A DNA stretch of 64,000 bases. Origin: Paenibacillus sp. FSL R7-0204 (GTDB taxonomy: Bacteria; Bacillota; Bacilli; Paenibacillales; Paenibacillaceae). How positions within the stretch are numbered: position 1 is the first letter of the stretch; every line of letters starts with the position of its first letter. The stretch spans positions 1,984,001 to 2,048,000 of the forward strand of contig NZ_JBBOCA010000001.1 of assembly GCF_038002225.1 (NCBI RefSeq), written 5' to 3'. A program made the position numbers and the translations under genes. Below the pieces are notes generated by a model. That model was not told the DNA's origin. It worked only from the letters and a program-made list of their open reading frames with translations, and did no database searches. Shown here one piece after another: positions 8,223 through 44,050 of this stretch.

Positions 8223-8470
8223 TGAGGTCGTGCGAGCTGGATGTAATCGAAAAACCGATTAGATTTCGCCACGCGAGGTCGTGCGGGCTGGATGTAATCG
8301 AAAAACCGATTAGATTTCGCCACGCGAGGTCATGCGGGCTGGATGTAATCGAAAAACCGATTAGATTTCGCCACGCGAGGTCGTGCGGGCTGGATGTAAT
8401 CGAAAAACCGATTAGATTTCGCCACGTGAGGTCGTGCGGGCTGGATGTAATCGAAAAACCGATTACATTG
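8223..8470. repeat. Right part of the 51-bp hairpin array (five units)
   Basis: Five tandem units with hairpin centres at 8252.5, 8303.5, 8354.5, 8405.5 and 8456.5 (exactly 51 bp apart), ~95% identical. Each holds GTAATCG-AAAAAC-CGATTA. Units 1-4 end GATTAG, which breaks one pair of the longer stem; the last unit ends GATTAC and restores it, like the unit left of the IS. Because 51 is a multiple of three, one frame stays open through the array, but its translation is just the repeat. Confidence 0.95.
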
Positions 8471-27894: not shown

Positions 27895-28032
27895 CCTGTG
27901 GTACCTCCTTTCTTATGCTGCTGGCTTACAGGAATACTCTTCGTTAAATGTATGCACGCCAGACTTGGACCAATGACAGGTTTTAATCGGATTATTGAAT
28001 AAAATTCCAGTTCGATGAGGGAGGACAACCTG

Positions 28033-28938
28033 ATGGATAAAAGAATGATCATCTGCGCCATCACCGCCGCGCTGCTGGGCGGTGGCCTGGTGTGGGCTGC
28101 AGACCACAGAGCACAGGACGCCGGCATCGCCGGATGGTCGACACTGAACACCGGAATGGCGCAGGCGCTGGGAGTGGCGGACGAAGGTGAGGCCGGCAGT
28201 GCAGCCGCCGGGGCTGATGGCGGGAGTTCCGCGGACGGGGCAGCTGGCGGGAGTGTGGCGGCGGGTGGAAGTATGGCAAGTGGAGCGGCAGGCGTTGAGG
28301 AAGCTGGTAACGGTACGGCCGGTAGTGGAGTTGTTGGTGGTGCGGTCACCGGTGGCGGAACGGCGGGGAGTGGAGTAACAGGTGGCGAGATTGCTGGTGG
28401 CGGAACGGCGGGGAGTGGAAATGTTGGCGGGAATCAGGCTGGTGGTAATGCCGCGCTCACTGGTGGCGGAACAGCAGGGGGTGGAGCGGCTGGGGGGAGT
28501 GTAACAGGTGGTAATACAGCGGGGAGTGGAGCAACTGGCGGGAGTATGGCAGGTGCAGCGGGTAGCGGAGTTGTTGGCGGTGCGGTCACTGGTGGCGGAA
28601 CAGCAGGCGCTGGAGCGGCAAGTGCCGGGATAGCGGGGGCGGCAGACGCAGGAGGACCCGGAGGAGCGGCAGGAAGCGGCGGTGCAAGTGGAGCGGCGGC
28701 TGCAACAGCTGGAGCCGCTGGCATTGCAGCCCCGGCAGCAGCTGACGGACGGATCAATGTGAATACAGCCGATGCCAAAGCCCTCATGGATCTGCCGGGC
28801 ATCGGAGAGAAGAAGGCGCAGGCGATTATCGACTACCGCACCAGTAAGGGAGCCTTCCGCAGCGCGAACGAGCTAGGGAAGGTGAAGGGCATCGGCCCCA
28901 AGCTGCTGGAGAAGCTGAAGCCTCTCGTGACTTTTTAA
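28033..28938 (+). CDS. comEA: ComEA, DNA-binding competence protein with an unusual Gly/Ala-rich central region
   Basis: A 301-aa protein. A signal anchor spans residues ~4-22 (MIICAITAALLGGGLVWAA). The C-terminal ~65 residues form the ComEA double helix-hairpin-helix (RINVNTADAKALMDLPGIGEK, then ANELGKVKGIGPKLLEKLKPL), which binds incoming double-stranded DNA at the membrane. The middle ~190 residues (about 45-235) are Gly/Ala/Thr/Ser-rich imperfect repeats built on GGGTAGSGVxGG. Bacillus ComEA normally has an SLBB/oligomerisation domain there; none is recognisable. The ATG at 28033 is chosen because GAGGGAGGAC precedes it. It is divergent from comER and upstream of comEB and comEC. Confidence 0.92.
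   Translation: MDKRMIICAITAALLGGGLVWAADHRAQDAGIAGWSTLNTGMAQALGVADEGEAGSAAAGADGGSSADGAAGGSVAAGGSMASGAAGVEEAGNGTAGSGVVGGAVTGGGTAGSGVTGGEIAGGGTAGSGNVGGNQAGGNAALTGGGTAGGGAAGGSVTGGNTAGSGATGGSMAGAAGSGVVGGAVTGGGTAGAGAASAGIAGAADAGGPGGAAGSGGASGAAAATAGAAGIAAPAAADGRINVNTADAKALMDLPGIGEKKAQAIIDYRTSKGAFRSANELGKVKGIGPKLLEKLKPLVTF
28300..28700 (+). repeat. Low-complexity coding repeats inside comEA
   Basis: Imperfect repeats of a GGTGGCGGAACGGCGGG-type unit (codons for Gly-Gly-Gly-Thr-Ala-Gly) recur through this span. All length changes keep the frame. Such repeats are prone to replication slippage. Confidence 0.8.
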
Positions 28939-28984
28939 GGCTGCCGTCCTGATTGTATACGAACAATCTGTCTCCCGTGGGAAG

Positions 28985-29169
28985 CAGTTGGATTTTATAC
29001 ACTTAATAAATCTCTAACGTTTCCCTGACGAACAGTAAGTGGATTTAGGGCAGCTAATTTGGTCCGAATGCGCTGAATCAGCGATTTGTAACGAATGAAG
29101 TGTCGTTTTTCCAACTACTATTATATCTTCGGTGCTTTTGCCAGCAACAGTTGTAGTTTTTCCACTTAA
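28985..29169. repeat. Four-motif intergenic element A
   Basis: Four copies of a pseudo-palindromic ~22-nt motif (core AGTTGGA ... CCACTTA), centres ~28995.5, 29045.5, 29106.5 and 29158.5, i.e. spacing ~50-61-52. The left half is an imperfect inverted repeat of the right half. It lies in the 634-nt gap between comEA and comEB, directly before element B. Confidence 0.7.
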
Positions 29170-29211
29170 CGGGCTTCACTCTCAGAGCATGGGCTGAGGC
29201 ATAGTAAGTTT

Positions 29212-29396
29212 CAATTGCACTCTGTACATTAGATTAGCCATAAATCTGCCTGAAAACTGAATCTGCTGCACTTCGTACATTAGAATTTTGAAAAAGAGGG
29301 TCTTTGGAGACTAAATCAGAGAATCAATTGTATGAAGTGCAGCAGAACGTTACTTAGGCGCTGAGAATGCAATTTCTATTGTATGAAGTGCAATCA
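29212..29396. repeat. Four-motif intergenic element B
   Basis: Four copies of a palindromic motif (core TGCACTTC-TACA-TAGAA or its complement), centres 29222.5, 29273.5, 29334.5 and 29385.5: spacing exactly 51-61-51. The two halves are inverted copies, so the whole can fold into one long hairpin. The motif is shared with the element at 37503. Confidence 0.8.
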
Positions 29397-29572
29397 CACC
29401 CCACTCTACCCACTCTAGGGATGAGCAAATGTGGTGTAGAAGTGGCGGCATGGGAAATTTAGGCGAGAGTTAGGCGAAATGTACGTTGTTGCGGGCTATC
29501 AATATCCTAGTGAAAACGCAGCCAGGTATGCTACAATAATGAACAACTATTTAGAGAAAGTGGAGATTGCTG
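29397..29572. other. Remaining comEA-comEB gap
   Basis: No gene was recognised. It should contain the comEB promoter or ribosome-binding region (AGTGGAGA just before 29573). Confidence 0.4.
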
Positions 29573-30091
29573 ATGACTGTGGCTTACCGCAAGAACTGGG
29601 ATACATACTTCATGGATATTGCCTGCATGGTCTCCACCCGTTCGCGCTGTCCCCGCCGCCATGTCGGCGCGGTGCTGGTGCAGGGGAAGAAGCTGCTGGG
29701 TACGGCCTATAATGGTGCACCGATGGGCGTTCCTGACTGCTCGGAAGCAGGCTGTATGGTCTCTGAGCAATACGAGCGTGAGATGATTGACGGTGTAGAG
29801 ACAATGGTCAAAAAGCAGCGCTGCATCCGCACAATCCATGCGGAGCAGAATCTGCTGCTGTTCACCGACCGGAGCGACCGGGAAGGCAGTACGGTCTACG
29901 TGACGGATGAACCCTGCTGGACCTGTGCCAATATGCTGGCTAACAGCGGAATCGTTGAGATTGTCTACCTGCGTCCTTACAAGAAAGACATGGAGAAGGT
30001 GCAGGCGATGCTCTCCTCCAAAGGAATCGTGTTCCGCCAATTGGAGAACTACGAGCCGCCTAAGGAAACGATGATTTCGATATCTGAGTAA
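29573..30091 (+). CDS. comEB: ComEB, dCMP deaminase family protein
   Basis: A 172-aa zinc-dependent deaminase that converts dCMP to dUMP. The zinc site is visible: HAEQN with the zinc His and catalytic Glu (~90-94) and the PCWTCANML cysteine pair (~116-124). The N-terminal block VSTRSRCPRRHVGAVLV and TAYNGAPMG are family hallmarks. I take the ATG at 29573 (MTVAYRKNWDTYFMDIA). It sits between comEA and comEC as in Bacillus, but separated from comEA by 634 nt of repeats, so it may have its own promoter. Confidence 0.93.
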   Translation: MTVAYRKNWDTYFMDIACMVSTRSRCPRRHVGAVLVQGKKLLGTAYNGAPMGVPDCSEAGCMVSEQYEREMIDGVETMVKKQRCIRTIHAEQNLLLFTDRSDREGSTVYVTDEPCWTCANMLANSGIVEIVYLRPYKKDMEKVQAMLSSKGIVFRQLENYEPPKETMISISE

Positions 30092-37264: not shown

Positions 37265-37502
37265 TCCGCATACCTCATTCCTGTAAATGAATGAACCTTC
37301 CCTACTCCTACGTACGAGTAACAATATAGTCTCATAGAAACCCCCTAAACTAGTAGGTTCGGTTTTCGACGCATACATTTGACCCTATGGTCTCATTGCA
37401 AATCCCTTGCACCCTGATCAGGCACGGCAACCCTCAGCAAGCGAGCTAATATTAGGCTGATATTGCACCTGTTGCCGACTGCTACTCTTACATTCAAGTA
37501 AG

Positions 37503-37688
37503 TGATTGTATTTCCTGCAATAGAAAGCGCATAGCTGACCGTTAAAGGAGATTCTATTGTACTTCATACAGTAGAATGTTGGGTTTTGGGTGAAAAATGA
37601 ATTTTTTCAACATTCCATTGTACGGAATACAATAGATTCTATTTTGAAGGCTTTTTTACAGTATTCTAGTGTACAAAATGCAATTGCT
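37503..37688. repeat. Four-motif intergenic element D (same family as element B)
   Basis: Palindromic motifs (core ATTCTATTGTA-N4-TACAATAGAAT) centred at 37512.5, 37563.5, 37624.5 and 37675.5: spacing exactly 51-61-51, identical to element B. The left half is an inverted copy of the right half; both carry GAATGTTG just inside the inner motif. It lies in the ~650-nt gap between the hydrolase and nrdF. Confidence 0.82.
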
Positions 37689-43554: not shown

Positions 43555-43680
43555 TCATCTTATAGTATAGGTGCAGGATGTGTGCTGGAATAGTTTGCTA
43601 ATCATGAGATGTTCCATTCGGTCGTTGGAGGAATTCCTATGAAGGCAGGGAGTCCTCCAATTTTCCTGTTATCTATGTCC
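43555..43680. other. Intergenic, left part of the gap before the kdgR-like gene
   Basis: Contains the inverted repeat TTGGAGGA ... TCCTCCAA (about 43625-43660). No gene and no T-run terminator were recognised. Confidence 0.4.
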
Positions 43681-43865
43681 CTTGCGGACTGTGAAGCCTT
43701 TATATTCTCGATTTGGCACATTTGATCCCGCTTACGGACTGCAAGGCCCTTATTGTAGTACGAATGTGTCTTAATCGGGTGAGTAACGGTGAATAAGAGC
43801 ACTGGAGTCCGCAAGCCTGATATAATGCTGCTTTTCGGGGGAATAAGCGCATCTCAGTCCGGTAC
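43681..43865. repeat. Four-motif intergenic element C
   Basis: Four copies of a ~23-nt motif (core CGGACT ... GCNCTTAT), two forward at 43681 and 43731 and two inverted at 43793 and 43843; centres 43692, 43742, 43804 and 43854, spacing 50-62-50. Forward and inverted halves can pair into one long hairpin. The motif sequence differs from elements A and B/D, but the geometry is the same. Confidence 0.78.
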
Positions 43866-44050
43866 CATCGTGCGGCCCAGTCATTTTAGTATATTTATCT
43901 CACGCCTTAGAGGCCGTATTCACTTATTTCGTATTTTCAATCTGATCTTATAGATAATTTACTAAAAAAAAGCTATACTTTTTGATAATCTCTCGAAGTA
44001 AACTTGGTTTGTGTTTACTTCTGGAGTTCGATAAGAGTGGAGCGGGAACA
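43866..44050 (+). promoter_or_regulatory. Promoter region of the kdgR-like gene with an inverted repeat
   Basis: AT-rich from 43935. The perfect inverted repeat GAAGTAAAC-N9-GTTTACTTC spans 43995-44021, 30 bp upstream of the start codon; a candidate autoregulatory operator or leader hairpin. Confidence 0.5.

Follow-up and report, generated by a model that had tools for sequence, protein, structure and literature searches.

MITEs and the small dispersed repeats bcr1, ERIC and RUP are short and dispersed, have inverted symmetry and are gained and lost between species. The four-motif elements analyzed in this study, which we call tetrads (motif order M1> M2> <M3 <M4), share these features but differ in that length and motifs are kept as their linkers diverge. 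The operators of wrapping regulators (Lrp-family octamers, archaeal Ss-LrpB) contain regularly spaced palindromes on one face of bent DNA, with a pitch of about three turns, and are found at few promoters. Tetrads, in contrast, have steps of five, six and five turns, occur in tens of copies and rarely use divergent gaps.

REP and BIME sequences resemble tetrads in being intergenic, present in many copies and made of palindromic motifs in inverted order, and short palindromes repeated often in intergenic DNA, by which REP/BIME are recognized, were also found here. In the parts of the source drawn on here, REP sequences serve as insertion targets for IS elements of the IS3 family and others, in which tetrads resemble them, and are discussed in connection with convergent genes and supercoiling (PMC1525189). 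Tetrads are unlike REP/BIME in their four sites, their fixed whole-turn spacing over ~185 bp, the AT phasing between sites and the lack of a link with PF01797 transposases. A RAYT-driven REP was rejected as a candidate, since the Y1 (RAYT) transposase family PF01797 is absent from six genomes (G001, G011, G012, G017, G018, and G023) that each contain 15–38 type-B matches. The E. coli gyrase motif, in the portion of the paper used here, has a phased GC content (10.75 bp), two 47-bp arms and a 36-bp center (PMC6379681). Together with the Mu strong gyrase site it displays a nucleosome-like phased composition, which these sources, in the passages available, read as wrapping (PMC6379681, PMC12393610). 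Tetrads share the phased base composition, while the gyrase motif, according to the same passages, measures 130 bp, has a period of 10.75 bp and possesses one cleavage center. No title or abstract that we found in the open-access PMC literature describes the tetrad.

Two tetrads between comEA and comEB

The window (the whole stretch of DNA that was analyzed, 64,000 nucleotides) contains two four-motif blocks between comEA and comEB, as a sequence-only reading had claimed, and their layout is more than chance. Block A as a whole spans 28983–29170 and block B 29210–29398. The features of the window are as follows.

28015..28938, + strand: comEA, helix-hairpin-helix domain, gene upstream of the blocks
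28983..29007, + strand: tetrad A, motif M1 (geometry scan, 25-mer windows)
29034..29058, + strand: tetrad A, motif M2 (geometry scan, 25-mer windows)
29095..29119, - strand: tetrad A, motif M3, inverted (geometry scan, 25-mer windows)
29146..29170, - strand: tetrad A, motif M4, inverted (geometry scan, 25-mer windows)
29210..29234, + strand: tetrad B, motif M1 (type-B model, 25-mer windows)
29261..29285, + strand: tetrad B, motif M2 (type-B model, 25-mer windows)
29323..29347, - strand: tetrad B, motif M3, inverted (type-B model, 25-mer windows)
29374..29398, - strand: tetrad B, motif M4, inverted (type-B model, 25-mer windows)
29567..30091, + strand: comEB-like deoxycytidylate deaminase gene, downstream of the blocks
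37501..37688, strand not given: second type-B tetrad in the window, spacing 51/61/51, member of dispersed subgroup 1
43680..43866, strand not given: type-D tetrad, spacing 50/62/50, genome position C1:2027680

The 25-mers start at 28983, 29034, 29095, and 29146 in block A (spacing 51/61/51) and at 29210, 29261, 29323, and 29374 in block B (spacing 51/62/51). The arms of 51 bp given earlier for block B were recovered; its center, given as 61 bp, is 62 bp here, a difference that depends on how the motif centers are placed. It had also been claimed that the blocks part comEA from its partner gene. This agrees with a gap of 631 bp in this genome versus 88–170 bp in the nine relatives where no block can be seen. 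The proposed comparison of this gap among relatives was carried out on 30 gaps (own genome counted), 25 of which were readable. A block is present in 16 of them, comprising A and B in five, B alone in five, a C-type block in three and another block in three (the last two kinds recognized by eye), and absent from the other nine. By these comparisons, blocks have been both gained and lost between species.

Two further observations concern this locus. ComEA has a long Ala/Gly/Ser-rich linker ahead of the helix-hairpin-helix domain (window 28060–28740), with Pfam matches of HHH type and a weak match to T2SSK. In one relative (L115, upstream of comEB), block A has lost the DNA between M3 and M4, as if these motifs had recombined, and block B has five extra bases in its center.

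Geometry, motif dialects and helical phasing

Geometry was scored by how well the four motifs agree once M3 and M4 are reverse-complemented, whatever their letters. With arms of 50–52 and a center of 60–63, a scan of 400 kb of the own genome gave 14 matches with a score of at least 84 (two being tandem arrays), and the same scan gave 20 matches in each of the relatives G115 and G113, several of which are tandem palindrome arrays. Control arms of 45–47 yielded one match in each of these three genomes (400 kb each) and control arms of 56–58 none, while a Markov control on a wider spacing grid reached a maximum of zero. According to the sequence-only reading, the geometry would be chance if shuffled DNA gave it at the same rate or if relatives had no similar units; neither is the case, given 14 matches against one and zero and the presence of tetrads in relatives. 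When spacing was left free (arm 40–63, center 45–75, tandem filter), the matches judged by eye to be tetrads had arms of 50–52, and the remaining matches fell in coding, tandem or low-complexity DNA.

The search by spacing that had been proposed earlier turned up more motif families with the same layout. Motifs are AAGTGGATTT-like in family A, TTCTAYTGYANNNNNTRCARTAGAA in family B, TTAGTTGTA-N5-TACAACTAA in family C and GCGGACTSAG-like with GCCGTTATT in family D; in addition, there is a family E, and others are found in G026, G033, and G037. Ungapped alignment suffices for nine D elements from two bacterial families and for eight C elements. In a scan allowing arms of 50–52, the pitch was 50 in 17/17 D elements and 51 in 13/13 B elements (orthologues counted), with types labeled by crude string rules under which E-like and some B elements were called C. 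At one locus, the E-like elements of three species have a pitch of 52; at another locus, the pitch is 51.

The center of D tetrads takes two lengths. In genus g1 and G037 the M2–M3 anchor distance is 72 (ten elements) or 73 (one), 11 of 17 elements being readable. In genus g18 it is 82 (eleven), 81 (four) or 72 (once), with all arms at 50, for the 16 readable places out of 18 that were chosen non-randomly from the listed matches and of which some are probably orthologues. The g18 center is thus 9–10 bp longer, i.e., by one helical turn, and no intermediate distance was seen among D elements within the allowed range of 50–110.

Base composition between the motifs is phased as well. Along the linkers of 21 B copies outside subgroup 1, AT-rich and GC-rich blocks alternate, with a spectral power at 10.0 bp of 3.05 in linkers versus 0.0025 in flanks and a second, smaller peak at 8.5 bp (power 1.35). 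The information content of B copies is 0.41–0.49 bits in the linkers and 0.07 outside. For the period analysis and the phase test, seven tandem or unclear matches out of 66 scan matches were omitted, and two unassigned matches were also left out of the analysis by type. With motifs excluded, the AT phase matches the dyad in 56 of 58 tetrads of all types, a mostly non-redundant set from which orthologues and subgroup 1 were omitted and to which B copies located in other parts of the genome were added; the two exceptions are one E tetrad and one labeled C. Against 60 letter shuffles, the z-score of this phase is 25.4, 22.3, and 17.7 at 10.0, 10.2, and 10.4 bp, respectively, and linker AT peaks are spaced every 10.0–10.2 bp. 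The summed signal at 10.2 bp amounts to 628, compared with −48 to 32 in six shifted controls and a shuffle SD of 28. The period of whole elements is 10.0–10.4 in types A, B, C, D, and E, and that of linkers alone is 10.0–10.1 except in type A (8.6). Linkers of g18 alone peak at 8.5, and the dyad there lies half a turn off the motifs.

We consider it likely that each block represents one ~185-bp DNA site that is bent or wrapped round a putative sequence-specific protein assembly. Computation shows four copies of a ~25-bp motif, in the order M1> M2> <M3 <M4, set on arms of five helical turns each (50–52 bp) around a center whose length is an integral number of turns (six; seven in one genus), with the DNA between the motifs AT-rich about every 10 bp, which we read as a bending code. 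Because of this AT-rich recurrence, the DNA most probably bends or is wrapped so that every motif center faces inward. The proteins would probably be paralogues, one per motif dialect, the DNA path a wrap and the role an architectural one, e.g., holding supercoils at gene ends. Against this reading stand the linker-alone peaks at 8.6 bp in A and 8.5 bp in g18, the smaller second peak at 8.5 bp in B, the two tetrads that are out of phase and the variable pitch of E-like elements (52 or 51).

A wider proposal, to which we hold only tentatively, is that bacteria of this order have a dispersed, sequence-programmed nucleosome-like particle, in which paralogous proteins with their own dialects may wrap ~185 bp on a four-site, integral-turn scaffold, at intergenic sites numbering from tens to hundreds. 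If the site is wrapped, it would represent a site-specific nucleosome-like architecture in bacteria, in which dialects could change and the scaffold stay. What defines the element is its spacing and bending, and not its sequence, so that ordinary repeat searches miss such elements. It can serve as bait for finding the candidate protein family, and the helical-phase model is open to direct test.

Constraint, genomic context and distribution

Motifs and spacing are under constraint at orthologous loci. Block B at comEA differs between ten species by a mean pairwise 0.080 in motifs, 0.203 in linkers and 0.441 in flanks. Eleven A–E tetrads were compared with two relatives, which was possible in 18 of 22 comparisons. 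Substitutions numbered 79/1082 and 36/699 in motifs, 134/954 and 80/622 in linkers and 232/941 and 111/553 in flanks. Indel events numbered seven inside tetrads (3357 aligned positions) versus 26 in the 45-bp flanks (1494 positions). Three comparisons were contrary, as flanks changed less than motifs in two D tetrads compared with G113 and linkers changed less than motifs in an E tetrad compared with G115. In distant genomes, type and length are kept in two syntenic gaps, the era gap in G028 and a D gap in G001, with an identity of 34–46% in linkers and 52–74% in motifs; that retention at this distance amounts to two gaps counts against the wrapped-site reading. A third candidate gap (W) was dropped, since in G001 the tetrad flanks the LacI-like gene on its opposite side. 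Tetrad gaps are shared in 5/9 cases with G113 and 6/9 with G115, which is a strong result, and in 1/3 with G001 and 1/2 with G028, which is not significant. The recurrence of different types in the same neighborhoods of distant species, near genes assigned by eye as RlmI-like and DnaJ-like, was not significant in a strict test and was rejected. The constraint, together with the constant geometry, the one-turn step and the 10-bp AT phasing, lends good support to an earlier suggestion that the units form an array on one DNA face for a DNA-binding protein, which is putative.

The host genome comprises 7.71 Mb in three contigs. A sequence-only model built from five B copies gave 96 strand-matches in it, and 35 full-length type-B places were taken, of which 34 belong to the main contig and the remaining one to the 106-kb contig C2. 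The spacing is 51/62/51 in 32 of these copies and 51/61/51 in one, while two have 52 bp in one or both arms; the model used to find these copies had that spacing built in, which makes them a biased sample, for which the geometry-only scans are the independent test. Linkers vary among the 35 copies. Over the whole genome, the B-motif pattern with at most one mismatch was matched 108 times, versus three times for the reversed pattern. In a 400-kb sample, 12 of the 15 matches lie inside B tetrads, and the other three are found in an internally deleted tetrad (C1:2058743), overlapping an E tetrad and alone.

According to gene predictions from our own heuristic calls, 44 of 47 elements are clear of genes and three overlap a gene end by 2–31 bp. 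Neighboring genes are both on the plus strand at 18 elements, both on the minus strand at 12, convergent at 16 and divergent at one, B tetrads accounting for 14 convergent cases and one divergent case. The background over 400 kb is 30 convergent and 30 divergent pairs (gaps of at least 250 bp, nine and ten). On comparison of the genes flanking tetrads, no repeated regulator stood out.

Within the genus, type B is present in 18 of 36 other genomes examined, and ComEB identity to that of the own genome is 88–96% in these 18 and 75–88% in the 18 without B. Outside the genus, one to three weak B matches occur in 4/23 genomes. A collection of named genomes gave eight stretches matching the B-motif pattern, all from Paenibacillus (P. 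piscarius, P. tritici, P. silagei, and sp. HW567). Type D is more widely spread, in 40/60 genomes (own counted) and 11/17 genera, and across the class in 21/200 genomes and 7/94 genera. No clear tetrad was found in 100-kb samples of G006, G010, and G014, although D matches were found genome-wide in G010 and G014, and the geometry sample of the AT-rich G051 gave noise alone. Viral contigs gave one B match, a single motif on inspection, and none for C; plasmid records gave no match.

Mobility, gyrase binding and folding as alternatives

Tetrads might also be MITE-like non-autonomous transposons, with M1–M2 and M3–M4 as two-site ends to which a transposase would bind and a geometry that is kept since only intact-ended copies move. 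We regard this as unlikely. The inverted arrangement, in which each end has two sites, the terminal inverted repeats (M1/M4), the gain and loss at one gap and the occurrence of a D and a B tetrad on the 106-kb contig C2 (C2:18049 and C2:23076) would fit such an element. The same applies to subgroup 1, which consists of 13 similar B copies whose homology often stops near the outer edge of M1 and which shows that copies reach new intergenic places. However, copies are constrained once inserted, the insert at L129 relative to the empty locus L128 is ~283 bp and thus exceeds the tetrad, with no target duplication by eye, and there is no correspondence between copy number and PF01797 transposases. 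Of the structured mobile element suggested by the sequence-only reading, the movement is therefore retained, as gain and loss between species and the spread of the 13-copy subgroup, whereas constraint in place, the failure to find a mobilizing enzyme and the lack of a target-site duplication by eye speak against the rest.

Split copies of the own genome point in the same direction, since those that were read contain ordinary IS elements and not a tetrad-ended gene; no autonomous element was seen inside them. One IS, encoding a 471-aa DDE_Tnp_1 transposase, is present in two copies of opposite orientation (L072 1930–3790 and L073 1870–3740; C1:1198434 and C1:6330875) and cuts B tetrads at the center of M3 with 5-bp duplications. 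An IS3-like element of ~1,290 bp (OrfA/OrfB) is inserted in M2 or M3 of D tetrads in seven copies (L274–L280, C1), six of them in the motif core and the seventh at the edge of the core; reading by eye gave 3-bp duplications. The nine IS insertions found are all in inner motifs (9/9), a proportion that may be biased, as insertions in outer motifs would resemble short matches and were not sought. An eighth suspect split locus (L281) has no such IS.

High-affinity DNA gyrase sites, at which phased bending would hold gyrase at gene ends where supercoils gather, are a quite improbable explanation. It would account for the phased AT and for the convergent placement of B tetrads. Gyrase is regarded as universal, though, and D matches are limited to about a tenth of the genomes of the class. 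Moreover, in place of a 130-bp phased motif with a 10.75-bp period we found a longer element (~185 bp) with a period of 10.0–10.4 (the cleavage core was unscored), and the four sequence-specific motifs of the tetrad, with their several dialects, have no counterpart in the gyrase motif.

A conserved structured RNA or cruciform, whose inverted layout would be preserved by the folding of transcripts or single strands, is very improbable: crossed partners pair as well as hairpin partners, so that folding is not what is conserved. This disposes of the RNA gene with a ~90-bp hairpin considered in the sequence-only reading. The region folds with a z-score of −4.69 (versus 100 shuffles), and paired cells make up 84.7% of the D alignment versus 76.4% in shuffles, with 18 pairs changing on both sides versus 9.4 (0/500 shuffles as high). 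However, the inside-over-between excess in D is 0.91 (M1:M3) and 1.56 (M2:M4) for crossed partners versus 0.87 (M1:M4) and 1.32 (M2:M3) for hairpin partners, and seven clean C elements have no such pairing excess. In B, the pairing of hairpin partners is slightly poorer within a copy than from one copy to another (16.69 versus 17.39; 18.00 versus 18.56), with no excess of G-T over A-C (74:99). The covariation check proposed earlier thus gave no compensatory change specific to paired partners in B, C or D, and the RNAalifold covariation term is +1.12. Rfam gave no gathering-score match in the 64-kb window, the six matches at 28900–29500 all being far below gathering scores. By the crossed-partner control, the shuffle signal in D fits a motif dialect common to all four sites.

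Some further arrangements were observed. In G001 (C1:5275676–5276330), three consecutive D tetrads ~235 bp apart adjoin a DnaJ-like gene, and in G113 and G115 a B tetrad lies beside genes matching those at this array. Tandem palindrome arrays with A-rich loops are found at 8224–8469 of the window and at L139 5115–5347, with periods of 51 and 52 bp, and similar arrays are present in G115 and G113. They have the five-turn pitch of the tetrad arms and are perhaps a related kind of array.
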